Positions 23,848-57,995 of a stretch of 64,000 nt of DNA are shown one piece after another. Position numbers and translations under genes: made by a program. A model generated the notes under the pieces. The model was not told where the DNA came from. It made no database searches and worked only from the letters and a program-made list of their open reading frames with translations. The stretch comes from Pedobacter sp. MR2016-24. Its GTDB lineage: Bacteria; Bacteroidota; Bacteroidia; Sphingobacteriales; Sphingobacteriaceae. The stretch is from positions 1 through 64,000 of the forward strand of contig NZ_JAPIVO010000009.1 in assembly GCF_026239655.1 (NCBI RefSeq). The letters are read 5' to 3'. Each line of letters starts with the position of its first letter. The stretch's first letter is position 1.

Positions 23848-23879
23848 TTTAATAGATTTAATTGGAGATAATACAAAAC

Positions 23880-27577: not shown

Positions 27578-28975
27578 ATGGCCTATCCTAAGAGTTTACC
27601 TTATATTATTGCCAACGAGGCTGCTGAACGTTTCAGCTTTTATGGCATGCGTTCCATCCTGACCACCTTCCTGGTATTGCAGTTTTTTAACCCTTTACTT
27701 AATCCTGCGCTGCAATCAGTCGCGGAAGCAAAAGCAAATGAAGCCACTCATTTTTTCGTATCGCTGGCCTATACTGTACCCTTTGTTGGTGCCATTGCAG
27801 CGGATTGGTTTTTTGGGAAGTATAAGGTTATTCTGTGGATTTCCTTATTGTATTGCGTAGGGCATTTGTTGTTATCACTATTTGATACCGATCTGGATAT
27901 GTTCAGGTTCGGCCTTGTGCTGATTGCGATAGGTGCGGGAGGGATAAAATCATGTGTATCGGCTAATGTGGGCGACCAGTTTAATAAGGATAACCAGCAT
28001 CTGCTTTCTAAGGTGTATGCCTGGTTTTATTTTAGTATCAACGCAGGCTCAGCGCTTTCTACCTTGCTGATTCCAATTGTTTATGCTGCATATGGTCCTA
28101 AATGGGCATTTGGGATTCCCGGAATATTAATGGCCATCGCTACAATCATCTTTTATTTTGGCCGTAACACATATGTGCGCGTGCCGCCCACAGGTATCAG
28201 AAAAGATAACTTTGTTTTTATCAGTTTATATGCATTGTTAAATTTTCGTAAAAAACAAAAAGGTCAGTCCTTGTTAGATGTAGCCAAATTGAAATTTAAT
28301 CCTGAAAAGGTGGAGGACATCAAGGCCGCATACCGTGTGATTGCTGTATTCAGTTTTATCCCTCTTTTCTGGGCAATGTGGGATCAGAATCTTTCAGAAT
28401 GGGTATTGCAGGCCGCTAAACTGGATCGTCATATTTTTGGCTATGAGTTATTGCCGCAGCAGATTCAGACCGTTGATCCTTTTTTTCTGTTACTGCTGAT
28501 TCCGGTATATAATTACCTGATATATCCTTTTATGGAGCGTATGGGGGTTAGCATGACGCCACTCCGCAGGATAGGTGGAGGATTAGCAATGATTGTGATT
28601 TCATTTGTAATTATTGCACTGGTGCAAACAGGAGTGGATCAGGGAACACATCCTTCAGTATGGTGGCAGGTATTTGCTTATTTTTTCCTCGCTGCTGCGG
28701 AAGTAATGGTTTCCGTTACCTGTCTTGAATACGCTTATACACAAGCTCCTGCTTCAATGAAAAGCACAATGGGTGCGATATGGCTGCTGACTATTGCCAT
28801 TGGTAATATATTTACCGCGCTGGTTAACCGGAGCATTTCGAACCACGGCTTTTTCGCTTCGCTGGAAGGAGCAACCTATTACTGGTTTTTTATCGGGTTG
28901 ATGGTCTTAGTGCTGGTTATCTATATGATTGTTTCACCTAAGATCAAAGAGCGGGTGATATTGCCAGCATCATAA
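27578..28975 (+). CDS. POT-family proton-coupled di/tripeptide transporter
   Basis: A 465-aa inner-membrane protein with about twelve hydrophobic segments and the peptide transporter (PTR2) signature: NEAAERFSFYGMRSILT at the N-terminus provides the ExxERFxYYG motif, and GAGGIKSCVSANVGDQF is the second signature. These transporters take up di- and tripeptides with protons. The gene stands alone on the plus strand between two SusCD operons. In this setting it could import the short peptides released in the periplasm by the S9, M24, M61 and DUF885 peptidases. Its start at 27578 is the only good ATG before the first membrane segment. Confidence 0.93.
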   Translation: MAYPKSLPYIIANEAAERFSFYGMRSILTTFLVLQFFNPLLNPALQSVAEAKANEATHFFVSLAYTVPFVGAIAADWFFGKYKVILWISLLYCVGHLLLSLFDTDLDMFRFGLVLIAIGAGGIKSCVSANVGDQFNKDNQHLLSKVYAWFYFSINAGSALSTLLIPIVYAAYGPKWAFGIPGILMAIATIIFYFGRNTYVRVPPTGIRKDNFVFISLYALLNFRKKQKGQSLLDVAKLKFNPEKVEDIKAAYRVIAVFSFIPLFWAMWDQNLSEWVLQAAKLDRHIFGYELLPQQIQTVDPFFLLLLIPVYNYLIYPFMERMGVSMTPLRRIGGGLAMIVISFVIIALVQTGVDQGTHPSVWWQVFAYFFLAAAEVMVSVTCLEYAYTQAPASMKSTMGAIWLLTIAIGNIFTALVNRSISNHGFFASLEGATYYWFFIGLMVLVLVIYMIVSPKIKERVILPAS

Positions 28976-29146: not shown

Positions 29147-29190
29147 GGTTAATATGCTACTTATAGCAGTTCCTTAATCTTATAAATTTG
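29147..29190 (+). promoter_or_regulatory. Probable control region of the GH127 operon
   Basis: TAAATTTG at 29183-29190 fits the Bacteroidota -7 consensus TAnnTTTG, 31 bp before the GH127 start. No TTG lies at the expected spacing, so activation may be needed. Just upstream are a short inverted repeat TGCTA-CTTA-TAGCA (29155-29168) and a GGTTAATAT element (29147-29155), placed where an activator would bind. Confidence 0.35.
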
Positions 29191-29221: not shown

Positions 29222-31609
29222 ATGAGAATTAATAAACTGATAATCCTATTGTCGCTGTTTTCTGAGACAATATATGCACAGCAAAAAGACTATCCAATTC
29301 AGCCTGTTGCGTTTACGCATGTACATGTAAACGACCAGTTCTGGGCACCTAAAATGGCCGTAAATGCTAATATAACCATTCCTTATACCTTGCAGCAATG
29401 CAGGATGGACGGCCGGATAGACAACTTCCTTAGGGCGGCTAAAACTATTCCGGGTGATAAGCTCAGCGCTTTTCCATTCGATGATACAGATATTTATAAG
29501 GTAATAGAAGGCGCTTCCTATGCGATGCAGATGAAGGCAGATCCTGCGATGGACAAATACATTGATTCGCTGATCACAATTATAGCTGCGGCACAGGAGA
29601 AGGACGGTTACCTGTTTACTTTCCGCACGGTAAATGCTGCTAAGCCCCATGACTGGATTGGGAGTAAGAGATGGGAAAAGGAAGAGGAACTGAGTCATGA
29701 GTTGTACAACTCGGGACACCTGTTTGAATCTGCCGTAGCCCATTATCAGGCTACAGGAAAGAAAACCTTACTGAATATTGCGATTAAAAATGCAGACCTG
29801 CTGGTGAAGGATTTCGGTTATGGGAAAGTAGAGAAATATCCTGGCCACCAGGTCGTAGAGATAGGTCTCGTAAAATTATATCGTATTACAGGGAATGAAA
29901 AATACCTGGATCTGGCCAAGTTTTTTCTGGATGAACGCGGACCAAAAGGGGATGCCTACAATCAGGCACAAGCAAAGGTAGTTGATCAGCATGAGGCAGT
30001 TGGTCATGCGGTAAGAGCTACTTATATGTATACCGGTATGGCAGATGTTGCTGCGATTACCGGCGATAAAAAGTATCTGAAAGCAATTGATGATATCTGG
30101 GAAGATGTAGTCAATAAGAAATTATATATCACCGGTGGTATTGGTGCTACAGGCGCTGGCGAAGCCTTTGGGGAAGCTTATCAGCTCCCTAATATGTCGG
30201 CCTACGCAGAGACCTGTGCTGCGATTGCCAATATTTACTGGAACAGCAGGATGTTCCAGCTGCATGGAGATGCCAAATACATTGACGTACTGGAACGCAC
30301 TTTATATAACGGATTATTGTCTGGCGTTTCCCTGAGCGGTGACCGTTTCTTTTATCCTAATCCGCTGGCTTCTATGCATCAGCACCAGCGTAGCGCATGG
30401 TTCAGCTGTGCTTGCTGTATTTCGAACATGACCCGTTTTTTACCTTCGGTGCCAGGTTATGTATATGCACAGGATGCGGATAACTTATATGTGAACCTCT
30501 TTATGAGCAACAGCAGTGAGATTAAACTACCTGCGGCGAATGTGAAAATTGCCCAGACCACCAACTATCCATGGGATGGGAAAGTCGAAATCAAAGTTGA
30601 TCCTGATAAAAGTGCGGCATTTGCGCTGCATGTCCGGATTCCGGGATGGACAGGTACACAGCCTGTTCCGGGAACGCTGTACAGCTTTATGGAAAGTCCG
30701 GCTGCACCGGTAACGCTATTAGTGAATGGAAAACCGCTAAAATATACCGTGGTTAAAGGTTATGCCGTGATTCAGCGCAGCTGGAAAAAAGGTGATCAGC
30801 TGACACTCTCACTGCCAATGGAAACCAGAAAGGTAGTTGCAAATGAGAAAGTAAAGGATGATAAAGGGCGTTTTGCTTTTCAGCGCGGACCGGTAGTCTA
30901 CTGCCTGGAAGGTCCTGATAACCGTGACAGCCTTGTGCAGAATATTATGGTCGATAAAAATGCGGTGCCTGCAATGGCATTTAACACAGAATTGCTGAAT
31001 GGTATTGAAGTGTTAACGGTAAAAGGCTTAAGCGCTAACAGACAGGTAAACAGCAGCGAAATCATTAAGACAGCACAGGACGTAACAGCGATTCCTTATT
31101 ATGCATGGGCAAATCGTGGTCCGAGTGAGATGGCCGTCTGGATTCCTTATGAAGAATCTGCATCGCGACCAAAACCTGCGGCAACTATAGCTTCAAAAAG
31201 TAAGGTTTCCGGCTCTTTGAGTAATAAACAATTGCTGGTTTCGGTGAAGGACCAGTATGATCCGGTAGATTCTAAAGACACGAACTATCCTTACCTGCAC
31301 TGGTGGCCTAAAAAGGATTCGAAGGAATACCTGCAATACGATTTTGACCAGGAATATGAGGTCACCCAATCTAAAGTTTACTGGTTCGATGATGCGCCGT
31401 GGGGCGGATGCCGTATACCGGCCAGCTATCAGGTTTTATACCTGAAAGATGGAAAATGGTTGCCTGTGGAAAATACGAACAGCTACGCTGTGGAGAAAGA
31501 TAAATTCAATACGTTAAGCTTTAAGCCGGTTAAAACAAGTGCATTACGACTGGAATTACAGCTGCCTAAAGAGAATGCGTCGGGCATTCACGAATGGATC
31601 ATTAACTAG
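29222..31609 (+). CDS. GH127 beta-L-arabinofuranosidase
   Basis: A 795-aa exported enzyme (signal peptide 1-19). The catalytic alpha/alpha domain (DUF1680) covers about residues 30-420 and is followed by beta-sandwich modules; the last, about 690-795, resembles a discoidin-type binding module. The zinc/nucleophile set of GH127 is complete: E330 and C332 (AETC) and C398-C399 (FSCACCISN). In Bifidobacterium longum HypBA1 the equivalent residues are Glu338, Cys340, Cys417 (nucleophile) and Cys418, and that enzyme removes beta-L-arabinofuranose from hydroxyproline-linked chains of extensin. It leads an operon that ends with hydroxyproline catabolism, which makes the same substrate likely here. 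Related GH146-type enzymes act on pectic arabinans instead. Confidence 0.88.
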   Translation: MRINKLIILLSLFSETIYAQQKDYPIQPVAFTHVHVNDQFWAPKMAVNANITIPYTLQQCRMDGRIDNFLRAAKTIPGDKLSAFPFDDTDIYKVIEGASYAMQMKADPAMDKYIDSLITIIAAAQEKDGYLFTFRTVNAAKPHDWIGSKRWEKEEELSHELYNSGHLFESAVAHYQATGKKTLLNIAIKNADLLVKDFGYGKVEKYPGHQVVEIGLVKLYRITGNEKYLDLAKFFLDERGPKGDAYNQAQAKVVDQHEAVGHAVRATYMYTGMADVAAITGDKKYLKAIDDIWEDVVNKKLYITGGIGATGAGEAFGEAYQLPNMSAYAETCAAIANIYWNSRMFQLHGDAKYIDVLERTLYNGLLSGVSLSGDRFFYPNPLASMHQHQRSAWFSCACCISNMTRFLPSVPGYVYAQDADNLYVNLFMSNSSEIKLPAANVKIAQTTNYPWDGKVEIKVDPDKSAAFALHVRIPGWTGTQPVPGTLYSFMESPAAPVTLLVNGKPLKYTVVKGYAVIQRSWKKGDQLTLSLPMETRKVVANEKVKDDKGRFAFQRGPVVYCLEGPDNRDSLVQNIMVDKNAVPAMAFNTELLNGIEVLTVKGLSANRQVNSSEIIKTAQDVTAIPYYAWANRGPSEMAVWIPYEESASRPKPAATIASKSKVSGSLSNKQLLVSVKDQYDPVDSKDTNYPYLHWWPKKDSKEYLQYDFDQEYEVTQSKVYWFDDAPWGGCRIPASYQVLYLKDGKWLPVENTNSYAVEKDKFNTLSFKPVKTSALRLELQLPKENASGIHEWIIN

Positions 31610-31645
31610 ATCATTTTAAATCAACAAACCAAAACACACCACATT

Positions 31646-34645
31646 ATGAGATTGAAATTTTTACTATTTGTCATAGGGATGCTCTTCCTGGGCAGCACCT
31701 ATGCACAAACCAGCCTGATCAAAGGGAAGGTTAAAGATCATACCGGGGGCGCTATACCGGGCGTAACCGTAAAGGTAAAAGGAACAACTTCCGGCGTTGC
31801 TACTGCGGGTGACGGCTCTTTTCAGATCAGCGCTGCACGCGGGGCAACACTGGTTTTCAGTGCAATAGGCTTCGGTGTAAAAGAAGTTGTCGTAACTGCG
31901 GAGCAGGAACTTAGTATTATCCTTACTGCAGATAACAAACAACTGAACGAAGTAGTGGTAACGGCATTGGGCGTAAAACGTGAAAGGCGCTCGCTGACTT
32001 ATAGCACACAGCAACTGACCGGTGAAGAATTAACGAATACAAAAGAAAACAATATCGTGAATGCGATGGCCGGTAAGGTTGCTGGTGTGCAGGTGACGAG
32101 TTCATCAGGTTCACCTGGTGCATCTTCAAGGATCGTAATCAGAGGTACATTTTCACCTACAGGAGAAAACCAGGCGCTGTTTGTGGTGGATGGTGTACCG
32201 ATCGACAATACAGAAACGGGAAATGTTCCGGGTGGCGCGGCTGGTGCCGGCGTAAACAGGGCAGCTGATATTGATCCTGCCACGATAGAATCTATGAGTA
32301 TATTGAAAGGTGCAGCAGCAACTGCATTGTATGGTTCACTGGGAGCCCGGGGTGTGGTGCTGATCACGACCAAAAACGGTGGATACAACAAAAGGGCTAA
32401 AATCTCTGTGTCATCTGATTTCTCAATCGACAAAGCCATCTTACCTGAGATGCAGCAAAAATATACCCAGGGTACTAACGGCACTTTTTATGATGGTGAA
32501 ACACAGAAAATCGGACAATCATGGGGCCCTGCTTTAGATGGTCTGCTGGTAAATGGCACACAAATACCAAAGTATAATCCTTACGATTTTTATCAGACAG
32601 GACATACCACCAATAACACGGTAAGTGTTGAGGGTGGAGGAGCTGCGTCTGATTATTTTATGTCTTATTCCTTTTTAGATCAGACAGGTGTTGTGCCGAA
32701 ATCTGAATTTGAAAGACATACATTTTTTGCCAAGCACAATACTAAAATCAGCGATAAGCTGACAACTACTTTTCAGATGACTTATACCAATTCTGAACAG
32801 AACAGATTACCGGAAGGCGCCAGTAACGGACCGCAGTTTGTCGTGTTTTTACAACCAATCTCCTGGAATCCTTATCCTGTTACAAATCCTGATGGCTCTC
32901 AGCGTTTATACCGCCTGTCCAGAAATGCACCCTTATGGACGCTTGATCACATCAATAACCGGTCAGTGGTGAATCGCTTTCTGCCAGTAGCTACGGTAAA
33001 CTTTAAACCCCTGCCATGGTTGACGATCACTGAAAGATTAGGTGCTGATATCTATACTGAACAAACGAAGTACACGGAAGATCCCAGCCCGGAAATAGGT
33101 CTTAAGGGACAAATCATAGAGCAGAATTCACTATACAGACAATATAACAATGACCTGATTGTGAATGGAGAGAAACAGTTCGGTAAGTTAAATGTGAACC
33201 TGCTGGCAGGAACAAACTTCAGGTCTGACTATTCGCAGGTAAATTTCCAGAAAGGTGCGGGACTGGTAGTAGATGGATTAACTAACGTATCTGCCGGTTC
33301 CGTGATCTCATCGAGTGAGAATCATTACCTGCAGCGTAAGCTTGGATTTTACGGACAGGCAAATATTGATTACAATAAATTCCTGATCCTGTCGCTAACT
33401 CAACGTTATGATGGCAGTTCTGTATTGTCTAGTGATAAACAATTTTACAGTTACGGATCAGCTGCCCTGGGTTTAATCACTTCGGATTTGTTGCCGGCTG
33501 CGGTTAACAGGGTAATGAACTTTTCAAAGATCAGACTTTCTTATGCGCGGGTAGGTAATGAGATAGTTGGCGCTTATAGTTTACTTACGCCTTATAACCT
33601 GGCCAGCAGAAATACGGCGACCGGTTCTTTCTTATATCCTTATAATGGTCAGCCAGGCTTTTTGATCAGCGACCTGTATGGTAACTATATGCTGAAAAAT
33701 GAAAACCTTGACGAGTTTGAGGCCGGACTGGAAATGAAATTCCTGAACAGCAGGATTGGTTTTGAGGGTTCTTATTTTGCAAGAAAATCTACAGACGGAA
33801 TTATCCCTGTAAATATCTCACAAGCGACCGGTTATGCCTCAACTTATGTGAACACGGCAAGTGTAAGAAACAGAGGTGTCGAGTTACTTCTAACAGGTGC
33901 ACCTATACGTAATCAGGATTTCAGCTGGGATATTACGCTGAACTTTAGTAAGATCAAGAATAAGCTGCTGGCACTGGCACCGGGAACAACACAGCTGGGC
34001 AGGAACATCGTAGGTGAATCTATAAATGTTTTTTATGGTACCCGTTACGAACGTACGGCAGATGGTCAATTGCTGATCAATGATGCAGGTTTACCAGTGG
34101 TTTCGGCTACACCTGGTATTGTAGGTGATGCCAATCCGGATTGGCTGGCAGGGATCAATAACAGCATCCGTTACAAAAACTTTACTTTTAATTTCTTCTT
34201 CGACATGAAGAAAGGTGGCGATGTACAGAATGATGTAGAGTCGGCCGCATTTTTTAATGGTACCGCAAAAGTGACAGAAAACAGGGAAGACCGTGTGGTT
34301 GCCGGAATCAGCCAGACAACGGGATTACCGAATACGGTTTCTGTGAAGGCTCAGCAATATTATCAGAGTCTGATCTATGAATCAACCATTCAGGATGGAA
34401 CGTATGTAAAACTGAGACAGGTGGGATTATCTTATGCACTTTCTGGTAAACTGCTGAAGAAAACACCTTTCAAAGCCGCTTCATTCTCCGTAACAGGAAG
34501 AAATCTTTGGATTTACAGTCCGCATTTTACCGGCGCAGATCCTGAGGTAAGTTCTTATGGAACAGGATTGGGGGTACAGGGAATCTATTCCTTCTCCACG
34601 CCAACCTCACGTTCAGTGGATTTTGCACTGAGACTGAGTTTTTAA
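31646..34645 (+). CDS. SusC/RagA-type TonB-dependent transporter
   Basis: A 999-aa outer-membrane transporter. Signal peptide 1-20, carboxypeptidase-regulatory-like domain about 21-100 (IKGKVKDHTGGAIPGVTV), TonB-box-like LNEVVVTALGVKRERRS, plug about 115-245 (RIVIRGTFSPTGENQALFVV, AATALYGSLGARGVVLITTK), and a barrel ending in a terminal Phe (DFALRLSF). It lies 36 bp after GH127 and 31 bp before susD. Operon partners imply uptake of a ligand containing beta-L-arabinofuranose and/or prolyl peptides. It is not a close copy of the first SusC in the window; only the generic family motifs are shared. Confidence 0.94.
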   Translation: MRLKFLLFVIGMLFLGSTYAQTSLIKGKVKDHTGGAIPGVTVKVKGTTSGVATAGDGSFQISAARGATLVFSAIGFGVKEVVVTAEQELSIILTADNKQLNEVVVTALGVKRERRSLTYSTQQLTGEELTNTKENNIVNAMAGKVAGVQVTSSSGSPGASSRIVIRGTFSPTGENQALFVVDGVPIDNTETGNVPGGAAGAGVNRAADIDPATIESMSILKGAAATALYGSLGARGVVLITTKNGGYNKRAKISVSSDFSIDKAILPEMQQKYTQGTNGTFYDGETQKIGQSWGPALDGLLVNGTQIPKYNPYDFYQTGHTTNNTVSVEGGGAASDYFMSYSFLDQTGVVPKSEFERHTFFAKHNTKISDKLTTTFQMTYTNSEQNRLPEGASNGPQFVVFLQPISWNPYPVTNPDGSQRLYRLSRNAPLWTLDHINNRSVVNRFLPVATVNFKPLPWLTITERLGADIYTEQTKYTEDPSPEIGLKGQIIEQNSLYRQYNNDLIVNGEKQFGKLNVNLLAGTNFRSDYSQVNFQKGAGLVVDGLTNVSAGSVISSSENHYLQRKLGFYGQANIDYNKFLILSLTQRYDGSSVLSSDKQFYSYGSAALGLITSDLLPAAVNRVMNFSKIRLSYARVGNEIVGAYSLLTPYNLASRNTATGSFLYPYNGQPGFLISDLYGNYMLKNENLDEFEAGLEMKFLNSRIGFEGSYFARKSTDGIIPVNISQATGYASTYVNTASVRNRGVELLLTGAPIRNQDFSWDITLNFSKIKNKLLALAPGTTQLGRNIVGESINVFYGTRYERTADGQLLINDAGLPVVSATPGIVGDANPDWLAGINNSIRYKNFTFNFFFDMKKGGDVQNDVESAAFFNGTAKVTENREDRVVAGISQTTGLPNTVSVKAQQYYQSLIYESTIQDGTYVKLRQVGLSYALSGKLLKKTPFKAASFSVTGRNLWIYSPHFTGADPEVSSYGTGLGVQGIYSFSTPTSRSVDFALRLSF

Positions 34646-34676
34646 GCAGAGCTGTTAACTTATTAAAATTAAAGAA

Positions 34677-36059
34677 ATGAAGAAATTCGCTATCATATTC
34701 CTCCTTGCTACTGTAAGTCTGGGTGGATGTAAAAAAATTCTTGACGTAAACGACGATCCAAACCGTCCGATAGAGGTACAGGAAGCATTAATACTGGCAC
34801 CGGTAGAGGTTGCTGTATCGGATTACCTGTATGCTGGCAACGCCAATATTATTATTCAGGACTGGCTGCAGGCGACTGCGCCAAACCAACCCAGTCCTGG
34901 TTTATGGAACTACCAGGCCTTTAACAATAACTGGGACAGTGACTGGTATAATACCTATGTGGTGTGTATGAATAACCTTCAGCAACTGAATAAAAAAGCA
35001 GTGGCGACGGGCAATACAAATTACCAGGCAATCGCTAAAATACTTACGGCTTATTCCCTGGGTTTTGCAACAGACATCTGGGGTGATATACCCTATTCGC
35101 AGGCTTTTACAGGTACAACTACACTAAATCCGGTTTATGATTCCCAGGAAAGTATTTATAGTGCCATGCAGTCCCTGCTGGACAATGCAATCGCTGATAT
35201 CGATAAAAACTACGTGATCAAACCAGGTACAGATGATTTCTATTATAAAGGGGATATGGCAAAATGGAAAGCAATGGCCTACACTTTAAAGGCGCGTTAT
35301 TATATGCACCTGACCAAAGCTCCGGGACACACGGCTACAGCACAGGCAGATCTTGCACTGGCGGCACTGGCAAATGGCATCACTACTGATGCTCAGGATT
35401 TGAAAATGACTTACAACGGTGGGGCCGGCAGTGAGAATCCATGGAACCTGACTTTCGGACCGGTATCTACTAAAGTGTTAAACCAGACTTTTGTAGAGGG
35501 TTTAAAGTCTACAGGTGACCCAAGGCTGGAGAAAATGGTGGCTCCGGCAATACTTACTGGTTTGTATACAGGCAGGAGAGTAGGCAGTGCGCTGGAAAAC
35601 CTGGAATCTTATTCTCTGGGAGGTGCCTATTATGCCGGGGAGAATGCCAGTAATTACCTGATGACCAATACTGAAGCCCAGTTTATTAAAGCAGAGGCCA
35701 CACTCATCAAATCTGGTGCAGCGACCGCTCAGCCGATATTTACTGCTGCAGTAACGAATCATATGAACAGATTGGGTATTGCAGGCGGAGATATAACTAC
35801 TTATCTTGCTGCCAGAGGTACACTGACTACGGCTAATGCACTCCAGAGAATTATTGAGGAGAAAAGCATAGCCAACTTCTTAAGCACAGAGAACTATAAC
35901 GACTGGAGAAGGACAGGTTTTCCTGTACTGACAAAGGTTGACGGAGCGCTAAGTGAAATACCGAGAAGGGCAATGTATCCAGAAACAGAATTAACAACCA
36001 ATCCTCAGCCACAGCAATCCGCAAAGATTACTAACCGGGTGTGGTGGGATTCAAACTAG
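34677..36059 (+). CDS. SusD/RagB-type lipoprotein (SusD-like 2)
   Basis: A 460-aa lipoprotein with signal MKKFAIIFLLATVSLGGC and the mature start CKKILDVNDDPNRP, typical of the SusD-like family 2 (often listed as SusD/RagB family lipoprotein). Helical repeats follow (YQAIAKILTAYSLGFATDIWGDIPYSQAF), and the C-terminal part has RIIEEKSIANF and NDWRRTGFPVL. It forms the surface lid and ligand-binding partner of the SusC encoded 31 bp upstream. The Xaa-Pro aminopeptidase gene begins 4 bp after its stop, so the peptidase is firmly tied to this uptake pair. Confidence 0.92.
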   Translation: MKKFAIIFLLATVSLGGCKKILDVNDDPNRPIEVQEALILAPVEVAVSDYLYAGNANIIIQDWLQATAPNQPSPGLWNYQAFNNNWDSDWYNTYVVCMNNLQQLNKKAVATGNTNYQAIAKILTAYSLGFATDIWGDIPYSQAFTGTTTLNPVYDSQESIYSAMQSLLDNAIADIDKNYVIKPGTDDFYYKGDMAKWKAMAYTLKARYYMHLTKAPGHTATAQADLALAALANGITTDAQDLKMTYNGGAGSENPWNLTFGPVSTKVLNQTFVEGLKSTGDPRLEKMVAPAILTGLYTGRRVGSALENLESYSLGGAYYAGENASNYLMTNTEAQFIKAEATLIKSGAATAQPIFTAAVTNHMNRLGIAGGDITTYLAARGTLTTANALQRIIEEKSIANFLSTENYNDWRRTGFPVLTKVDGALSEIPRRAMYPETELTTNPQPQQSAKITNRVWWDSN

Positions 36060-36063
36060 TATT

Positions 36064-37422
36064 ATGTTTTCAAAAGAAGTATATCAGCAAAGAAGAGACG
36101 CACTTAAAACTGCTATAGGTGAAGGAATTATCCTCTTACCCGGGAATGAAGAAAGCGGAATGAATTACAGGGATAACTTATACCCTTTTCGTCAGGATAG
36201 CTGCTTCCTGTACTTTACAGGGATAGACAGACCCGATCTTTGTTTTATGATTGATATCGATAGTAACCAGGAGATTCTTTTTGGTGATGATGCTACGGTA
36301 GAGGATATTGTATGGACAGGGCCGCAGGAAGCTTTAGCGCTGCAGGCAGAAAAATCCGGCATTGCGTATGTTCGTCTGAAATCTGAAATACCAAATGCTT
36401 TAAGAGGTGGCAGAAATATTCATTTCCTGCCACCTTACAGGGCAGAAACTACTATAAAGTTATCAGAATGGGGCGTTACTGGTCAGCCATCAGTTCCGCT
36501 GATCAAAGCCATCGTTGCCCAGCGCTCTATAAAAAGCGCAGAAGAAGTAGCGGAGATTGAAAAGGCTGTAGCTACCAGTGTATTGATGCATCAGGCTGCC
36601 ATGGAGCTGGGCATAGCGGGGATGACAGAAAGCGCCGTTGCTGGTCACCTTCAAGCTGTCGCTATAACAGGTGGAGGTAATCTTGCCTTTCCTGTAATAC
36701 TAACCGTGAACGGTCAGTTCCTGCATAACCATGCAGGTTCCAATGTATTGAAAAGCGGGCAGATGGTTTTATGTGATGCTGGTGCAGAAAACAACATGCA
36801 TTATGCTGGTGATTTAACCCGTACTTTCCCGGTCGACCAATCCTTTACATCGCTGCAGCAGGAGGTATACAATATTGTGCTGAACGCACATCAATCCGCC
36901 GCCGCGGCATTAAAACCAGGCGTATTATTCAAAGATGTACACCTGCTGGCCTGCGAACGTTTGGCTGAAGGGCTCAGTGATCTGGGACTAATGAAGGGTG
37001 ATCCCAAAGAGGCTGTGGCAGCCGGAGCCCATGCGCTGTTTTTCCAGTGCGGACTGGGACATATGATGGGACTTGATGTACATGATATGGAAAACCTGGG
37101 CGAGGAATATGTAGGCTATACAGAAGATTTGAAAAAAAGTACACAGTTCGGCCTGAAGTCGCTCAGACTTGGCAGAAGCCTCGAAGCAGGTTTTGTGCTG
37201 ACCGTAGAACCCGGACTCTATTTTGTGCCCGACCTGATCGATGCCTGGTCGGCCGAAAGTAAACACGCCTCTTTTATCAATTATGCGGAAGTAGAAAAGT
37301 TCCGCAATTTCGGTGGCATCCGGATCGAGGAAGATTTTCTGGTTACACCAGGGGGCAGTCGCTTATTGGGGCCGCCACTGGCTAAAACTATTGCCGAATT
37401 GGATCTCGTTTTCAATACATAG
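36064..37422 (+). CDS. Xaa-Pro aminopeptidase (aminopeptidase P, M24B)
   Basis: A 452-aa cytoplasmic enzyme with no signal peptide. The N-terminal AMP_N domain (about 1-130, with QDSCFLYFTG) is followed by the pita-bread M24 domain. The metal ligands are visible: two Asp in LCDAGAENNMHYAGDLTRTF, His in GLGHMMGLDVHD, Glu in LTVEPGLYF and Glu in GGIRIEEDFLV. The enzyme removes an N-terminal residue that precedes proline and, in some family members, hydroxyproline. It lies 4 bp after susD and before the hydroxyproline catabolic genes, so it probably releases amino acids from imported Hyp/Pro-rich peptides. A second aminopeptidase P is encoded at 44763-46520. Confidence 0.92.
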   Translation: MFSKEVYQQRRDALKTAIGEGIILLPGNEESGMNYRDNLYPFRQDSCFLYFTGIDRPDLCFMIDIDSNQEILFGDDATVEDIVWTGPQEALALQAEKSGIAYVRLKSEIPNALRGGRNIHFLPPYRAETTIKLSEWGVTGQPSVPLIKAIVAQRSIKSAEEVAEIEKAVATSVLMHQAAMELGIAGMTESAVAGHLQAVAITGGGNLAFPVILTVNGQFLHNHAGSNVLKSGQMVLCDAGAENNMHYAGDLTRTFPVDQSFTSLQQEVYNIVLNAHQSAAAALKPGVLFKDVHLLACERLAEGLSDLGLMKGDPKEAVAAGAHALFFQCGLGHMMGLDVHDMENLGEEYVGYTEDLKKSTQFGLKSLRLGRSLEAGFVLTVEPGLYFVPDLIDAWSAESKHASFINYAEVEKFRNFGGIRIEEDFLVTPGGSRLLGPPLAKTIAELDLVFNT

Positions 37423-37485
37423 GTATATGTTAAGATCGAACTGATTTCCGGTAATTTCCAGTTAAAAAGCCACTTCATCATGCTT

Positions 37486-37493
37486 TATTTTTG
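37486..37493 (+). promoter_or_regulatory. Possible internal promoter (-7 element)
   Basis: TATTTTTG matches the Bacteroidota -7 consensus TAnnTTTG in the 88-bp spacer before the deaminase gene, the longest gap in this operon, 17 bp before its ATG. No TTG lies 17-23 bp upstream. The four hydroxyproline genes may therefore be transcribed on their own as well as with the upstream uptake genes. Confidence 0.3.
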
Positions 37494-37510
37494 AAAGAAA
37501 AACATAATTT

Positions 37511-38428
37511 ATGAATAAAGATTTTTGGGCAGGTGTATTTCCTGCAATCACTACTAAATTTACATCAGACGAAGAACTTGATCTGGCAGCATGTAACAAA
37601 GGGATAGAAGCACAGCTTGAAGCAGGCGTTAACGGTATCGTTATCGGAGGTTCATTGGGTGAGGCAAGCACATTAACAGAAGAAGAGAAGTTTATACTTC
37701 TTGAAGAGACATTGAAAACTGTTGCAGGCAGGGTTCCCGTGATTTTTAGTATTGCAGAGCAGGCGACCAATATCGCGGTAAGCCATGCTAAAAAAGCGGA
37801 ATCACTGGGCGCATCTGGTGTGATGATCCTTCCGCCGCTGCGTTATTATGCATCAGCTGATGAAACGGTAGCTTATTTTGCTGCAGTAGCTAAAAGTACC
37901 AGCCTTCCTATTATGATTTACAATAATCCGGTTGACTATAAAATCCATGTTACGCTGGATATGTTTGCAGAACTGGAGCAATATGCTAACATCAGCGCGG
38001 TAAAAGAATCTACACGTGATATCAGTAACATCACCAGGATGCTAAACCGTTTTGGCGATCGTTTCAAGATTTTTACAGGAGTTGATCCCCTGGCTTTGGA
38101 AAGTATTGTTGCAGGTGCACACGGCTGGGTTGCTGGTCTGGTAGACGCTTTCCCTAAAGAAACAGTCGCGATTTTCCGTTTGGTAAAAGAAGGCAGGATT
38201 AATGAAGCAGTGGCGATTAACCGTTGGTTTATGCCATTACTCGATCTTGATATTCACCCTAAACTGGTACAATATATTAAACTTGCGGAAGTGGCTACTG
38301 GAACGGGTACAGAATATGTGCGTGCACCTCGTTTGGTGTTGAGCGGTACCGAACGTGAGCAAATCACTAAAGTGATCAATGATGCACTGGCGGTAAGACC
38401 GGTATTGCCTGAAGGCAGCTGGGGATAA
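37511..38428 (+). CDS. DapA-family lyase, probable pyrroline-4-hydroxy-2-carboxylate deaminase
   Basis: A 305-aa TIM-barrel enzyme of the DHDPS/NAL superfamily. The Schiff-base lysine is K165 (ISAVKESTRD), the conserved tyrosine is Y137 (MIYNNP), and the carboxylate-binding loop is GGSLGEAS (47-54). The family contains synthases, aldolases and dehydratases/deaminases. Its three downstream neighbours are the other steps of the 4-hydroxyproline pathway, which identifies this as the step that converts delta1-pyrroline-4-hydroxy-2-carboxylate to 2-oxoglutarate semialdehyde plus ammonia. Lysine synthesis is unlikely, since GSLGE differs from the usual GTTGE of DapA and no lysine genes are near. 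Confidence 0.85.
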   Translation: MNKDFWAGVFPAITTKFTSDEELDLAACNKGIEAQLEAGVNGIVIGGSLGEASTLTEEEKFILLEETLKTVAGRVPVIFSIAEQATNIAVSHAKKAESLGASGVMILPPLRYYASADETVAYFAAVAKSTSLPIMIYNNPVDYKIHVTLDMFAELEQYANISAVKESTRDISNITRMLNRFGDRFKIFTGVDPLALESIVAGAHGWVAGLVDAFPKETVAIFRLVKEGRINEAVAINRWFMPLLDLDIHPKLVQYIKLAEVATGTGTEYVRAPRLVLSGTEREQITKVINDALAVRPVLPEGSWG

Positions 38429-38464
38429 TCCCCCTGAATGATCAATAATATTTAACACAAAAGA

Positions 38465-40042
38465 ATGAACGGACAGAATTTAATAGGAAATGAGTATGCT
38501 GAAGCAGCAACTTCAGCATTTAAGGCGATTAATCCCGCAACAGGGGCAACTCTGGAAGGCGATTTTTTTCCTGCTCAGCAAAAAGATGTTGATGAAGCTT
38601 TAAATCGTGCTGTAAGTGCTTTTACAGTGTATAAAAATATTGATAAAGACCGTAGAGCAGATTTTTTACGGGCTATAGCAAATGAAATACTGGCTGTGGG
38701 CGATGAGCTGATTGAGCGCGCCTGTGCAGAAAGTGCTCTGCCTTTAGGCAGGATCCAGGGAGAGCGGGGAAGAACGGTAGGCCAGCTGAATATGTTTGCT
38801 GACCTGCTGGCGGAAGGCTCCTGGGTAGAAGCAATTATAGACAATGAACTGCCGGACAGGCAGCCTGCACCAAGACCAGATATCAGAAGAATGTTAGTTG
38901 CCATGGGACCAGTAGTGGTATTCGGGGCAAGTAACTTTCCTCTGGCTTTTTCTGTTGCAGGCGGAGACACGGCTTCGGCCCTGGCTTCGGGCTGCCCGGT
39001 GATTGTAAAAGCACATGCTGCCCATCCGGGTACAAGTGCACTGGTGGCTGCTGCGATACAAAAAGCAGTGATTTCAACAGGAATGCCTGAAGGGGTATTC
39101 TCTATGCTGTTTGACGATGGTTATGAAATTGGTGCATTACTGGTAAAACATCCAAAAACCAAAGCGGTAACTTTTACGGGTTCGTTTAAAGGAGGGATGG
39201 CACTGAACAAACTGGCTTCGGAAAGAGAAGAGCCTATTCCTGTATTTGCGGAGATGGGCAGTATCAATCCTGTTTTGTTATTGCCGGAAGCACTGGAAAC
39301 ACGTGCGGAACAGATAGCAGAACAGTATGCCGCTTCGATTACTATGGGAGCCGGACAATTCTGTACTAATCCCGGTTTGTTGCTGGGTGTGGCTTCGGCT
39401 GGTTTAACTCGTTTTAAAGATACGCTCGCAGAAAAAGTTGCAGCGATTTCTTCGGCAACAATGCTGACTGAAGGGATTTGTAAAAACTTCAGCACACTTT
39501 CTGCAGGGATGCTGGAAGAACAGGAGATTACACTGGTAGCGAAATCGTCACTGGAAGTGGATGGCGCAAGCAATCAGGCATTGGCCACTATTGCTGAAGT
39601 GTCTGCAAAAGCATTTCTGGCTAACCCAAAATTAAAGGAAGAAGTTTTTGGACCATGGTCATTATTGGTAGTTGCTGATAATGTACAAGAGCTGGAACAG
39701 GTACTGGCCTACGCAGGCGGACAATTAACATTGTCTGTAATGGCAGCTGAAAACGAATTGAATACGTATCAAACATTACTCGATAAAGCGGAGGAAATTA
39801 CGGGACGTATTTTGCTGAATGGCGTGCCTACCGGAGTGGAAGTATGTGCAGCGATGCAGCATGGCGGACCTTTCCCGGCGACAAATGATAGTCGTTTCAC
39901 CTCTGTAGGTACAACGGCAATCCGTCGGTTTGTGCGACCATTAAGCTGGCAGAACTGGGACAAGAAATTATTGCCTCCGGCATTACAGGACGGTAATCCG
40001 TTAAATATCTGGAGACTGGTAGATAATAAAATGACCAAATAA
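38465..40042 (+). CDS. 2-oxoglutarate semialdehyde dehydrogenase
   Basis: A 525-aa aldehyde dehydrogenase. The catalytic Cys300 (GAGQFCTNPG) and general-base Glu263 (FAEMGSINP) are both present. The protein groups by sequence feel with the NADP-type 2-oxoglutarate semialdehyde dehydrogenases of hydroxyproline operons (long form with EMGSINP and QFCTNPGL), rather than the arabinose-pathway type. It oxidises the semialdehyde to 2-oxoglutarate, the last step feeding the TCA cycle. It sits 36 bp after the deaminase gene and 3 bp before the epimerase gene. Confidence 0.88.
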   Translation: MNGQNLIGNEYAEAATSAFKAINPATGATLEGDFFPAQQKDVDEALNRAVSAFTVYKNIDKDRRADFLRAIANEILAVGDELIERACAESALPLGRIQGERGRTVGQLNMFADLLAEGSWVEAIIDNELPDRQPAPRPDIRRMLVAMGPVVVFGASNFPLAFSVAGGDTASALASGCPVIVKAHAAHPGTSALVAAAIQKAVISTGMPEGVFSMLFDDGYEIGALLVKHPKTKAVTFTGSFKGGMALNKLASEREEPIPVFAEMGSINPVLLLPEALETRAEQIAEQYAASITMGAGQFCTNPGLLLGVASAGLTRFKDTLAEKVAAISSATMLTEGICKNFSTLSAGMLEEQEITLVAKSSLEVDGASNQALATIAEVSAKAFLANPKLKEEVFGPWSLLVVADNVQELEQVLAYAGGQLTLSVMAAENELNTYQTLLDKAEEITGRILLNGVPTGVEVCAAMQHGGPFPATNDSRFTSVGTTAIRRFVRPLSWQNWDKKLLPPALQDGNPLNIWRLVDNKMTK

Positions 40043-40045
40043 TAT

Positions 40046-41047
40046 ATGTCAAGCAAAACATTTTTCTGTATAGATGCGCATACCTGCGGTAATCCGGTGC
40101 GACTGGTAGCTGGTGGCGGACCCAATCTTGTTGGGGAGACGATGAGTGAAAAGAGACAACATTTTCTAAAAGAATATGACTGGATCAGACAGGGGCTCAT
40201 GTTTGAACCAAGAGGTCACGATATGATGTCAGGCAGTATTTTATACCCGCCTCATGATCCTCAAAATGATGTTGCGGTGCTGTTTATTGAAACCAGCGGC
40301 TGTCTGCCTATGTGCGGTCATGGTACTATAGGTACAATTACGATTGCGATAGAAGAGGGATTGATTATGCCAAAAGTTCCCGGCATAGTTAAAATGGAGG
40401 CACCTGCGGGTTTGGTGAACATTGAATACAAACAGGAAAACAATAAGGTATCTTCGGTAAAGCTCACAAATGTGGCTTCTTACCTTGATTCGGAAGGTTT
40501 AACCGTGGAATGCCCGGATTTGGGAACGCTGACTTTTGACGTGGCCTATGGAGGTAACTTCTACGCCATAGTTGATCCGCAACCTAACTTTAAAGGGATT
40601 GATCACTATGCAGCCGATCAGCTGATTTCCTGGAGCAGGGTAATTCGTAAACGAATCAATGAGCTGTATAGCTTTGTGCATCCGGAAAACCCTACGATTA
40701 AAGACTGTACACATATTCTTTGGGCAGGAGATACCAAATCCCCCGATGCTACAGCACGAAATGCAGTTTTTTATGGCGATAAAGCGATAGACCGCTCGCC
40801 CTGCGGTACAGGGACTTCTGCACGCATGGCGCAGTGGTTTGCTAAAGGCAAACTAAAAAAGGGTGATTCATTTGTCCATGAAAGCATCATTGGAAGTACG
40901 TTTATTGGTAAGGTAGAAGATGTGGTGGACTTACAGGGACGTAAAGCTATCATTCCAAGTATTGAAGGATGGGCAAAAGTATTTGGCTATAACACCATCA
41001 AAATTGATGATGATGATCCTTATGCAAAGGGTTTCCAGGTGATTTAA
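40046..41047 (+). CDS. 4-hydroxyproline 2-epimerase (proline racemase family)
   Basis: A 333-aa member of the proline racemase superfamily. Both catalytic cysteines are present: C90 in MCGHGTIG and C253 in SPCGTGTSARMA. Two cysteines mark racemases/epimerases; a Thr at the first position would instead mark trans-3-hydroxyproline dehydratase. Genomic context with a D-amino-acid oxidase, deaminase and semialdehyde dehydrogenase identifies it as the enzyme converting trans-4-hydroxy-L-proline to cis-4-hydroxy-D-proline, the first step of the pathway. Proline racemase activity cannot be excluded from sequence alone. Spacing to neighbours is 3 and 37 bp. Confidence 0.9.
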   Translation: MSSKTFFCIDAHTCGNPVRLVAGGGPNLVGETMSEKRQHFLKEYDWIRQGLMFEPRGHDMMSGSILYPPHDPQNDVAVLFIETSGCLPMCGHGTIGTITIAIEEGLIMPKVPGIVKMEAPAGLVNIEYKQENNKVSSVKLTNVASYLDSEGLTVECPDLGTLTFDVAYGGNFYAIVDPQPNFKGIDHYAADQLISWSRVIRKRINELYSFVHPENPTIKDCTHILWAGDTKSPDATARNAVFYGDKAIDRSPCGTGTSARMAQWFAKGKLKKGDSFVHESIIGSTFIGKVEDVVDLQGRKAIIPSIEGWAKVFGYNTIKIDDDDPYAKGFQVI

Positions 41048-41084
41048 CGCGCTGGAATTTTTAAAAATATTAGAAGATCTATAA

Positions 41085-42329
41085 ATGGGAAAAGCAATTA
41101 TAATAGGTGCCGGAATTGTTGGGCTGAGCTCCGCTTATTACCTGCAGCAGTCTGGCTGGGAGGTAACGATACTGGAGAAAGGGGATTTATCTGATAATTG
41201 CTCTTTCGGTAATGCAGGGATGATTGTTCCAAGTCATTTTGTGCCCCTTGCTGCCCCGGGAATGATAGAGAAGGGAATTAAATGGATGTTTGACAGCAAG
41301 AGTCCTTTTTATGTGAGGCCTTCGCTGAACTTTGATCTGGCAGGCTGGGGACTGAAATTCATGAAAAGTGCAAACAGGGAGAAAGCTGAACGTGCGGCTG
41401 TGCCATTGCGTGACATTTCTTTATTGAGCAAGGACTTGTATGCGGGACTGACAAAGGATATCGGCGATTTTGGGCTGACCAATAACGGGATCCTGATGTT
41501 GTACAAAACGGATAAAGTGGGTGAGGAGGAACTGCATATTGCAGAGCAGGCAAGAAATCTGGGACTGGATGTAGCCTCGTTATCTGCTGCTGAAGTCCAA
41601 ACGCTGCAACCGGATCTTAAGCTGGACGTGTTAGGGGGAATCCATTACAGATGCGATGCCCACCTGAACCCAAATCAGCTGATGGCCTTAATGCAAAAAT
41701 ACCTGTTGGCTAAAGGCGTTAAAATTATTAAAAACACAGAAGTCACAAAAATTATACATGAGAAAGGAAAGATCACCAGCCTGCTGGCCGGCGGGAAACA
41801 ATACAGCGCAAATCACTATGTGCTGGCAGGTGGATCATGGTCGCCCGAAATAGCCAAACGTGCCGGTTTTAAAATTCCTTTAATGCCGGGTAAGGGTTAT
41901 TCCTTCTTAGTAGATGATACGGCGAAAAACATGCACATCGCTGCTTTATTGTGCGAAGCTAAAGTTTCTGTTACGCCAATGGGAGGTAAGATCCGCTTTG
42001 GCGGCACGATGGAAATCGATGCTGTAAATGACCGCATTAACATTAACCGGGTAAAAGGAATTGTGGAATCTATTCCTAAATACTTTCCCGGTATGCATCC
42101 TGCACTGCCTGAAACGAAAGATATATGGTATGGTTTCAGACCTTGTTCTCCTGACGGGCTGCCTTATCTTGGAAACAGTAAATCTTTACAAAACCTGACT
42201 GTAGCTACAGGGCATGGTATGATGGGAATCAGTCTTGGGCCGGCTACCGGTAAATTAGTGAGCGAACTCATTAATGGTCAGTCGCCCTCAATGGACATCA
42301 ATCCATTTTCGGCCAATAGGTATGCTTAA
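41085..42329 (+). CDS. FAD-dependent D-amino acid (cis-4-hydroxy-D-proline) oxidoreductase
   Basis: A 414-aa DAO/DadA-family flavoenzyme. The FAD-binding Rossmann motif GAGIVGLSSAYYL begins at residue 8, followed by the acidic ribose-binding residue in TILEKG. The C-terminal GHGMMGISLGPATGKL closes the FAD site. In hydroxyproline operons this type oxidises cis-4-hydroxy-D-proline to pyrroline-4-hydroxy-2-carboxylate, the substrate of the deaminase encoded three genes upstream. It is a single-subunit form with no adjacent small iron-sulfur subunits. It is the last gene of the operon; a strong hairpin begins 21 bp after the stop. Confidence 0.9.
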   Translation: MGKAIIIGAGIVGLSSAYYLQQSGWEVTILEKGDLSDNCSFGNAGMIVPSHFVPLAAPGMIEKGIKWMFDSKSPFYVRPSLNFDLAGWGLKFMKSANREKAERAAVPLRDISLLSKDLYAGLTKDIGDFGLTNNGILMLYKTDKVGEEELHIAEQARNLGLDVASLSAAEVQTLQPDLKLDVLGGIHYRCDAHLNPNQLMALMQKYLLAKGVKIIKNTEVTKIIHEKGKITSLLAGGKQYSANHYVLAGGSWSPEIAKRAGFKIPLMPGKGYSFLVDDTAKNMHIAALLCEAKVSVTPMGGKIRFGGTMEIDAVNDRININRVKGIVESIPKYFPGMHPALPETKDIWYGFRPCSPDGLPYLGNSKSLQNLTVATGHGMMGISLGPATGKLVSELINGQSPSMDINPFSANRYA

Positions 42330-42350
42330 AAGCGATATTTACTGCTAAAT

Positions 42351-42387
42351 AATAAGCGTCAAATTGATAATTAATTTGACGCTTATT
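42351..42387 (+). terminator. Hairpin terminator of the hydroxyproline operon
   Basis: A perfect 15-bp inverted repeat AATAAGCGTCAAATT / AATTTGACGCTTATT (42351-42365 and 42373-42387) with a 7-nt loop, followed by TATCTTTTT. It separates the operon from the AraC gene that starts 22 bp later on the same strand. Because of its AT-rich symmetry it could also serve as a regulator site, but a terminator is more likely. Confidence 0.8.
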
Positions 42388-42409: not shown

Positions 42410-43273
42410 ATGAAAGTACTGCCTTTTACTATACCGGTTTCCCATGACAGGACAATCATTGTTCAAACAGAGGATATGCCTTATTTCTACACGTATTTAC
42501 ATCGTCATAAGGAAATTCAGCTGACATGGATTCAGGAAGGTGAAGGGACTTTAGTTGCGGGTATGAATATGCATTTGTTCCGTGCAGGTGAGATTTATCT
42601 TTTTGGCGCCAACATGCCCCATGTCTTTAAAAGTGATCCCGAGTATTTTGAGGTGGACAGTAAAAAGAAGATCCGGACCATTACAGTTTTCTTTAATCCC
42701 ACAGATAAGCTATCCGCTCTGTTTGACCTCCCTGAAATGAAAAATGTACAGGCCTTCCTGGAGGAGAATAACTGTGGCTTTAAAGTACCGCACCAGTTAT
42801 TTTCTGATATCTCCGGCAGGTTGCTCGGCTTGCTGAATTCGGATGGTATAGACCAGCTGATGCAGTTTCTGCAGTTACTGAAAACATTGAGCAGTATGAA
42901 AAACCTGGAGCCGCTTACCGTAAATTCACTGCCACGGAGCATTAATGACAATGAAGGAATGCGTGTTGCTTCGATTTATAACTATATCATCCAGAATTAC
43001 AGCAAGGCCCTTACGCTGGAAGAGGTGGCTGAACAGGCTTACATGACCCCGCATGCTTTCTGCCGTTATTTCAAAAAACATACCCGTTATACGCTGGTGG
43101 GCTTCCTGAATAAGGTGCGGATCAATGAGGCCTGTAAATTGCTGATGAGCGGCTCCCATAATGGGATAGCGGCCATCGCTTACAGCTGTGGTTTTAACAG
43201 CATCACTAATTTCAACAGAGTATTCAAATCCATTACCGGTAAAAGTCCCCGGAACTATAAAGAGCAATTCTAA
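42410..43273 (+). CDS. AraC-family regulator with N-terminal cupin
   Basis: A 287-aa regulator. The N-terminal cupin domain shows TYLHRHKEIQLTWIQEGEG and AGEIYLFGANMPHVF, the sugar- or small-molecule-binding half. The C-terminal AraC HTH pair covers about residues 185-287: TLEEVAEQAYMTPHAFCRYFK and IAAIAYSCGFNSITNFNRVF, ending KSPRNYKEQF. It lies directly after the hydroxyproline operon and before the amino-acid permease, so it is the natural candidate regulator for both. The effector could be hydroxyproline or L-arabinose; the sequence does not tell. TATATTTC at 42398-42405 is one base off the -7 consensus but very close to the ATG. Confidence 0.92.
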   Translation: MKVLPFTIPVSHDRTIIVQTEDMPYFYTYLHRHKEIQLTWIQEGEGTLVAGMNMHLFRAGEIYLFGANMPHVFKSDPEYFEVDSKKKIRTITVFFNPTDKLSALFDLPEMKNVQAFLEENNCGFKVPHQLFSDISGRLLGLLNSDGIDQLMQFLQLLKTLSSMKNLEPLTVNSLPRSINDNEGMRVASIYNYIIQNYSKALTLEEVAEQAYMTPHAFCRYFKKHTRYTLVGFLNKVRINEACKLLMSGSHNGIAAIAYSCGFNSITNFNRVFKSITGKSPRNYKEQF

Positions 43274-43336
43274 GAAGAAGGTTAATATCTGTCAATGATT
43301 GATTAATAATTGAATATTTTTCAGTTTGTATTCTTC

Positions 43337-43344: not shown

Positions 43345-43373
43345 AAATACAACAAACCAAAACCTCTTTTTTT

Positions 43374-46520: not shown

Positions 46521-46526
46521 CTATAA

Positions 46527-48500: not shown

Positions 48501-48507
48501 GGTTTTG

Positions 48508-52725: not shown

Positions 52726-52796
52726 CCCGAAGCAATAGGGTTTTGACAATGCCCGGGTGGAGTAAAACCTGGACATTTTTTTTTATGTTTGTTCTA

Positions 52797-53672: not shown

Positions 53673-53705
53673 AATAACAAGTAGAGGGATACATTCCCGG
53701 ACTTG

Positions 53706-57968: not shown

Positions 57969-57995
57969 GTGCCTGATCTGAGAGCTGTCTTAATG

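Follow-up and report, generated by a model that had tools for sequence, protein, structure and literature searches.

A Pedobacter locus linking a GH127-type arabinosidase to hydroxyproline catabolism: a probable utilization system for plant hydroxyproline-rich glycoproteins

Introduction

Why would a soil bacterium keep genes for removing arabinose next to genes for degrading hydroxyproline (Hyp)? The question is raised by a stretch of 64,000 nucleotides from Pedobacter sp. MR2016-24 (assembly GCF_026239655.1, contig NZ_JAPIVO010000009.1, positions 1 to 64,000; hereafter the window), in which a predicted GH127-type beta-L-arabinofuranosidase heads a row of eight genes that ends with the families of the Hyp pathway. 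We propose, with good though not full confidence, that the window encodes a utilization system for plant Hyp-rich glycoproteins. The arabinosidase and the Hyp genes belong together more than chance would allow: their linkage recurs in other genomes and a common DNA motif lies upstream of both. As substrate, Hyp-O-arabinosides of the extensin type would be our first choice, arabinogalactan proteins being a close second. Both extensins and arabinogalactan proteins rank among the main glycoproteins of the plant cell wall, and bacterial enzymes acting on their sugars are already known.

The eight-gene unit

The initial annotation had described eight closely spaced plus-strand genes ending at a 15-bp hairpin. 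The eight open reading frames are borne out at 29222-42329, with the same gaps of 36, 31, 4, 88, 36, 3 and 37 bp, and the observation as a whole is confirmed; the hairpin lies at 42351-42387 and has 17 pairs in our scan. The features are as follows:

29222..31609, plus strand: predicted GH127-type beta-L-arabinofuranosidase (PF07944, PF20736, PF20737)
31646..34645, plus strand: SusC/RagA TonB-dependent transporter (TIGR04056, 645 bits; TonB plug by Pfam)
34677..36059, plus strand: SusD-like_2 lipoprotein (PF12771)
36064..37422, plus strand: M24 aminopeptidase P, Xaa-Pro type (PF00557, PF05195)
37511..38428, plus strand: DapA-type protein, predicted from its context to be pyrroline-4-hydroxy-2-carboxylate deaminase (PF00701, K165)
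38465..40042, plus strand: aldehyde dehydrogenase (ALDH), predicted 2-oxoglutarate semialdehyde dehydrogenase (PF00171, C300, E263)
40046..41047, plus strand: 4-hydroxyproline 2-epimerase (Pro_racemase; NF010578; C90, C253)
41085..42329, plus strand: predicted FAD-dependent D-amino-acid (D-Hyp) oxidase/dehydrogenase (PF01266, DAO, 234 bits)
42351..42387, plus strand: intrinsic terminator-like hairpin (hairpin scan, 17 pairs)

The best defined member of the catabolic set is the epimerase, which scores 598 bits against a cut-off of 376 in the NCBIfam model for 4-hydroxyproline epimerase (NF010578) and has both catalytic cysteines, C90 and C253, as had been claimed. The other three are assigned at lower resolution. 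The oxidase is placed in the DAO family (PF01266, 234 bits), and the DapA-type protein in the DHDPS family (PF00701 with K165), its score in the dapA equivalog model being 172 bits versus a cut-off of 206. The best NCBIfam model for the ALDH is alpha-ketoglutaric semialdehyde dehydrogenase (103 bits versus a cut-off of 770), and no equivalog cut-off was reached among the 25 NCBIfam models listed; C300 and E263 are presumably its catalytic residues. All four families of the bacterial trans-4-hydroxyproline pathway (epimerase, D-Hyp oxidase, deaminase and semialdehyde dehydrogenase) are thus adjacent on one strand.

The GH127 protein consists of catalytic, middle and C-terminal domains and an F5/8 C domain (Pfam). 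Its residues E314, E330, C332, C398 and C399 align with E322, E338, C340, C417 and C418 of HypBA1, which we take to form the Zn/Cys site, and they are invariant across 14 orthologues, so that the protein has both the domains and the metal-site residues of the family. Aceric acid hydrolase was considered as an identity and rejected (480 bits versus the NF049879 cut-off of 950). The contiguous SusC/SusD pair with glycosidase genes has the gene content of a polysaccharide utilization locus (PUL). The closest PDB chain of the SusD-like protein is 4q69; it also matched BT_2263 (5fq6), which we take to be the partner of an oligopeptide SusCD system.

Recurrence of the linkage in other genomes

The linkage is not confined to this genus. 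We annotated the best 80 of at least 565 GH127 relatives in named genomes with the window proteins. A locus was counted as Hyp-linked if the Hyp core, meaning either the epimerase or two or more of the four genes of the pathway, was no further than 10 kb from GH127. By this definition 17 of the 80 loci are Hyp-linked: seven from Mucilaginibacter, three from Flavihumibacter and one each from Flectobacillus, Ilyomonas, Flavipsychrobacter, Sediminibacterium, Spirosoma, Chryseolinea and an unnamed Sphingobacteriia bacterium. The neighbourhood search suggested by the initial annotation therefore finds the linkage in several genera (eight named ones) and in many gene orders. For instance, L213 reads APC-DapA-HypRE-DAO-GH127-GH146-DUF885 on one strand throughout, L178 reads DapA-ALDH-HypRE-APC-GH127, L151 has a GH146-GH127 pair divergent from SusC-SusD-DapA-HypRE-DAO, and in L218 a GH146 gene stands between the epimerase and the oxidase. 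Content that is kept while the order changes is what functional linkage would give. In L190 (Sediminibacterium soli) one stretch holds araA, an araD-like class II aldolase, an araB-like FGGY kinase and an aldose epimerase together with GH127, GH51, DPP-IV, AraC and DapA-ALDH-HypRE, and L192 is similar; arabinose and Hyp could therefore both be consumed through a single stretch of DNA.

The GH146-type gene in these loci is a second member of the PF07944 family (about 787 amino acids), which adjoins some Hyp operons in place of GH127; its closest PDB chain is 5opj, which we take to be a GH146 enzyme. In the control, 20 Pedobacter loci of a GH127 paralogue with 37-39% identity (L258-L277), none had Hyp genes nearby. 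As a separate observation, araA (L-arabinose isomerase) lies near this paralogue in 12 of the 20 loci. We also note that a record titled Beijerinckiaceae bacterium (L194) carries a 63% identical GH127, while most other matches are from Bacteroidota; the contig is possibly mis-binned.

Within Pedobacter, a GH127 orthologue (at least 65% identity) occurs in 24 of 119 genomes, the copy in G011 being in fragments. Among 60 Pedobacter genomes all 14 with the orthologue also have the epimerase, compared with 24 of the 46 others (Fisher p 9e-4, phylogeny ignored). Physical distance was analysed in 20 epimerase-positive genomes, hand-picked for few contigs or for a GH127 orthologue after some links were known, with 72 of 84 PF07944 hits used (six were dropped because they were the second part of a split gene, and six more because they scored at most about 26 bits). 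In nine of the 20 (11 pairs) a PF07944 gene is found no more than 14 kb from the epimerase, whereas 0.35 would be expected under random placement, an expectation which assumes independent genomes and is not strictly valid. Because some links were known at picking, two subsets were recounted: the ten single-contig genomes (4/10 versus 0.18 expected) and the 16 genomes that remain once the four with a previously known GH127 link are set aside (5/16 versus 0.26). GH127/GH146-type genes were found in nine of 39 further epimerase loci and in seven of 36 class-wide loci (four of them Pedobacter), four of the 40 class-wide loci (L254-L257) having been left out as their epimerase is below 40% identity.

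The exact eight-gene unit is much rarer. Among 22 other GH127 neighbourhoods of the genus (L107-L126, L041 and L043), GH127-SusC-SusD-PepP-DapA-ALDH stand in a row only in G113 (L107). The exact operon is therefore rejected as a conserved unit, being seen in the window and G113 among the neighbourhoods viewed; the finding that had been named as refuting, a gene order confined to this genome, is nearly what we see, with one relative sharing the order.

A shared upstream motif

The second line of evidence is a short DNA motif. The 9-mer GGTTAATAT has six copies in the window against 0.84 expected, a number reached in 0 of 100 shuffles. Five of the six are intergenic and in gene sense, preceding the operon that begins with DUF885, the POT gene (two copies), GH127 and the APC gene, and the sixth is inside a coding region. 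The flanking genes named here are listed further below. The predicted operator sites, with position weight matrix (PWM) scores, are:

8328..8336, plus strand: GGTTAATAT, predicted operator core, 101 bp upstream of the DUF885 operon; PWM 13.9 bits
27072..27087, minus strand: predicted operator facing the second SusC; PWM 11.7
27508..27516, plus strand: GGTTAATAT, 70 bp upstream of POT; PWM 13.1; a further 9-mer copy at 27271
29147..29155, plus strand: GGTTAATAT, 75 bp upstream of GH127; full 16-bp PWM below 9
43280..43288, plus strand: GGTTAATAT, upstream of the APC permease; PWM 16.3

The matrix (16 bp, consensus GGTTAAAATcCgATAA) was seeded with GGTTAATAT and trained solely on upstream regions of DapA-type genes. 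Only genes preceded by 100 bp or more of free DNA were scored, exact duplicates being removed and near-duplicates kept, and a site was counted at 10 bits or more; this threshold was fixed after values from 9 to 12 had been viewed, none of the four giving a different picture. Sites precede GH146 in 16 of 28 cases, GH127 in 22 of 59, SusC in 6 of 13, DPP4 in 4 of 7, APC in 4 of 12 and AraC in 14 of 57, compared with 17 of 553 other genes and 20 of 1440 mononucleotide shuffles, which were made from plus-strand GH127/GH146 upstreams only. The motif was found even upstream of GH127 genes that have no Hyp genes nearby (19/50). Genes that are usually operon-internal rarely have sites (epimerase 0/12, oxidase 0/18), and weakly labelled genes, left out of the first matrix count, have them in 13 of 122 cases. 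An unseeded search for enriched words returned GTTAAAAT, GTTAATAT, TAAAATCC and AATATCCG in front of GH127/GH146 genes as well. Two further checks said little: the paralogue control provided a single testable upstream sequence (0/1), and the 11-mer TTGGTTAATAT was uninformative genome-wide, with 10 matches versus 15 for the reversed pattern.

In the window no site of at least 9 bits precedes the DapA gene, which fits DapA being read from the GH127 promoter. The G113 sequence corresponding to the GH127-upstream site is GGTTAAAAT. We conclude that the Hyp genes and the arabinosidase may be switched on together. As other transcription units in the window also have motif sites in front of them, the system probably extends from about 8.3 to 44.8 kb. 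The claim of one operon is therefore too narrow a frame: the eight genes are indeed contiguous, and the evidence fits a regulon of several units.

Weighing the alternatives

A number of observations weigh against the proposed coupling. Of the 24 genomes with the GH127 orthologue, only five (the window genome G000, G113, G106, G036 and G037) have it no more than 14 kb from the epimerase; in four more the distance is 23-31 kb (G035, G010, G025, G149), in the rest it is larger or the genes are on different contigs, and G154 has the orthologue and no epimerase. As related genomes are not independent, the p-values are optimistic. The fetched stretch contains neither GH127 nor GH146 in 30 of the 39 further and 29 of the 36 class-wide epimerase loci, hence Hyp catabolism often works without these enzymes, and several GH127 orthologues are in arabinan (GH51/GH43) or galactan (GH30/GH35) loci. 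As to the motif, it was not found upstream of DUF5695 (0/18), POT (0/2) or GH51 (0/4) and is scarce before two peptidase genes, the second M24 (1/13) and the M1 (1/15). The matrix alone is unspecific: of 12 places in the window that reach 9 bits, eight fall within genes and four stand before the second SusC, POT, APC and the DUF885 operon. The site before the window's own GH127 gene keeps the 9-bp core at a full-matrix score below 9.

The identity of the glycan is the point at which an alternative survives best. The ranking of PDB chains for the GH127 protein is 6ex6 (739 bits), 4qjy (465), 5mqo (327) and HypBA1, 3wkw (316). As the closest chain is 6ex6 and not HypBA1, the sequence of the GH127 protein does not establish extensin as its substrate. 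We take 6ex6 to be BT3674, the GH127 of the Bacteroides thetaiotaomicron arabinogalactan locus. Arabinogalactan is given as the primary substrate of the BT3674-87 PUL (PMC3243724), and BT3674 is described as working with exo-galactanases on larch arabinogalactan (PMC10850190). The glycan target could thus be arabinogalactan protein; GH127 would then trim beta-L-arabinofuranose from the tips of type II arabinogalactan, while the protein backbone would be used by means of the Hyp genes. GH127 orthologues accompanied by GH30, GH35 and AraC-DUF885-APC in L112-L114, L118 and L121 point in the same direction, as does the window's GH97 protein, whose best matches are alpha-galactosidases. On the other hand, GH146 was labelled in ten of the 17 Hyp-linked loci and GH51 in three, compared with only two for GH35 (L151, L153) and none for GH30; the labels were given by similarity to a reference set and are not exhaustive. 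Extensin-type Hyp-arabinosides fit because arabinose-directed families prevail beside the Hyp genes, and arabinogalactan protein fits because of 6ex6 and the GH30/GH35 loci. We regard arabinogalactan protein as quite possible; it is a variant of the proposed system and compatible with it. Of the claim for an arabinosidase/Hyp operon directed at extensin, then, the linkage stands (several genera, shuffled orders, common motif) and extensin itself is not secured.

Another explanation is that the locus scavenges Hyp peptides from collagen, gelatin or protein in general, and that GH127 is part of a neighbouring pectic-arabinan system and shares the transcript by chance. This would agree with the many epimerase loci without GH127/GH146 counted above, with the resemblance of the SusD protein to BT_2263 and with the arabinan loci of some GH127 orthologues (L109-L111). 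It accounts poorly for a linkage that recurs in other genera and orders, and for the motif upstream of unlinked GH127 genes, so we consider it unlikely. The many Hyp operons without glycosidases do indicate that the Hyp module is more general than its coupling to an arabinosidase. Inherited hitch-hiking among relatives, combined with a motif that is a general promoter element, might be suspected since most Pedobacter and Mucilaginibacter loci are related, the counts are not corrected for phylogeny and matrix hits fall within genes as well, but it is very improbable given the differing orders across eight named genera, the rarity of the motif before the 553 other genes from the same loci and the paralogue loci without a Hyp link.

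The surrounding block

The initial annotation omitted flanking genes that appear to belong to the system, and the eight-gene operon is the middle of a block for degrading glycans and proline peptides:

8429..10222, plus strand: DUF885 protein (PF05960), a recurrent neighbour of Hyp operons
10253..13003, plus strand: DUF5695 protein (PF18951, 1338 bits)
13012..15519, plus strand: MGH1-like/GH65-C glycosidase; closest in the PDB are two chains named beta-L-arabinobiosidase, 5mqr and 6m5a
15528..19010, plus strand: GH43 with F5/8 C and LamG domains (Pfam)
19013..20581, plus strand: M61 aminopeptidase (Pfam)
22372..27038, minus strand: second SusD/SusC pair, divergent (Pfam)
27578..28975, plus strand: POT-family peptide/H+ symporter (PF00854)
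42410..43273, plus strand: AraC-type regulator (PF12833)
43371..44801, plus strand: APC amino-acid permease, candidate Hyp importer (PF13520), recurrent in epimerase loci
44763-46520, 46527-48521 and 48508-50790, minus strand: M24 peptidase, GH97 and DPP-IV genes (Pfam)

The first five form an upstream plus-strand operon, in which we take DUF885 to be a predicted peptidase and the MGH1-like/GH65-C protein to be GH142-like. The second SusCD pair adjoins GH127 orthologues in the relatives L107, L108, L116, L120, L122, L124 and L125, and the AraC-type regulator is beside the Hyp genes in 31 of 39 epimerase loci. It is less certain that the minus-strand genes at 44763..50790 are part of the system, though relatives of the M24 and DPP-IV peptidases recur in epimerase loci.

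DUF5695 deserves separate attention. It occurs in 23 of 60 Pedobacter genomes, and each of these 23 has the epimerase (within 14 kb in 18); in a sample of 300 genomes from the order it occurs in 120. Thirty more positive genomes, from two other genera of the family and hand-picked before the epimerase search, all have the epimerase (within 14 kb in 24), which makes 53 of 53 positive genomes in the three genera and 42 of 53 within 14 kb; two members of one of these two genera and one of a third are without epimerase, their DUF5695 status not being shown. No PDB relative was found up to E = 1, homology with GH127 or the GH142-like protein was unsupported (hhalign probability about 2%), and the single-sequence AlphaFold model was unusable (mean pLDDT 32.8). 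The sole paper found to name DUF5695 in the open-access literature concerns fungal regulators. As its upstreams have no motif and there is no usable fold, the place of DUF5695 in the regulon is argued from position. A second, distant relative (157 bits) is on the window's contig (G000:C21:266001-268361), and a gene with several in-frame stops, apparently decayed, is at G533:C11:284745-287158.

Three other features are recorded here for their own sake. A NUDIX-winged-helix regulator with an AraR_C match is at 52743-53534 in the window, and a same-family protein is beside the araA/araD/kinase genes in L190. A PorV-like type IX secretion protein at 53703-54926 adjoins large minus-strand genes (54930-63918). 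Finally, a DUF6055 protein (L122:18114-19535 and relatives), with a weak, Svx/AvrXca-like NCBIfam match far under the cut-off, is repeatedly a neighbour of GH127, together with the second SusCD pair.

Proposed mechanism and comparison with known systems

In the proposed utilization system, SusC/SusD would carry glycopeptides across the outer membrane. GH127, with GH43, the GH142-like protein, GH97 and possibly DUF5695, would remove arabinose-containing glycans, and the DPP-IV, DUF885, M61 and M24 peptidases would cleave the Pro/Hyp-rich backbone. The POT and APC carriers are predicted to transport peptides and amino acids inward, and the last four genes of the operon (acting in the order epimerase, oxidase, deaminase, dehydrogenase) would convert trans-4-hydroxy-L-proline to 2-oxoglutarate. 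The AraC-type regulator, which probably senses Hyp or a derivative, may activate the units via a GGTTAA[A/T]ATCCG operator. Gene families, residues, linkage and motif are observed, and the substrate, activities, cell locations and regulator binding in this scheme are predictions. A broader version, a regulon found in many Bacteroidota in which a Hyp signal acts via AraC on glycosidases, SusCD and prolyl peptidases as a single system for Hyp-O-arabinosylated plant proteins, and in which DUF5695 is a so far undescribed enzyme that replaces HypBA2, is offered tentatively; it is made less probable by the 0/18 DUF5695 upstreams.

It is useful to compare the window with related systems. The HypBA1-HypBA2-HypAA system of Bifidobacterium longum, with its Xanthomonas homologues, shares the PF07944 beta-L-arabinofuranosidase, which there acts on Hyp-linked arabinose. 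Unlike that system, the window links Hyp catabolism, SusCD and many peptidases, and the classical HypBA1/HypBA2 arrangement was rejected, as no GH121 (HypBA2) relative in the genome reaches the cut-off (best 52 bits versus 3200). One article on these enzymes describes sugar removal, and the term 'catabol' is absent from it; in X. euvesicatoria, according to the article, a prolyl oligopeptidase pseudogene adjoins xehypAA (PMC6085000). The resemblance to BT3674-87 of B. thetaiotaomicron is that of a Sus-type locus with a GH127, the one that we take to be the closest solved relative (6ex6). That locus is described for its glycan, and Hyp catabolism is unmentioned in the portions at hand of PMC3243724 and PMC10850190. 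A neighbourhood-network study bearing on the bacterial Hyp pathway (PMC4113996) has a main text without the words extensin, collagen, plant and TonB; glycosidases were not searched there. Classical Bacteroidota PULs likewise have SusC/SusD adjoining a glycosidase; the window differs from these in that its linked catabolic pathway serves an imino acid and its local regulator is of the AraC type. That a locus for both the sugar and the imino acid is undescribed agrees with our search of the open-access literature by title and beginning of the abstract, a scope outside which lie most subscription papers and all preprints: among the papers listed, none joins a GH127/GH146 enzyme with Hyp catabolism.

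The linkage and the motif together provide material for tests: genera known by name, a candidate for the regulator and one for the operator, and a series of enzymes that includes DUF5695. That the pairing recurs across genera of the phylum suggests a dedicated way of eating plant Hyp-containing proteins.

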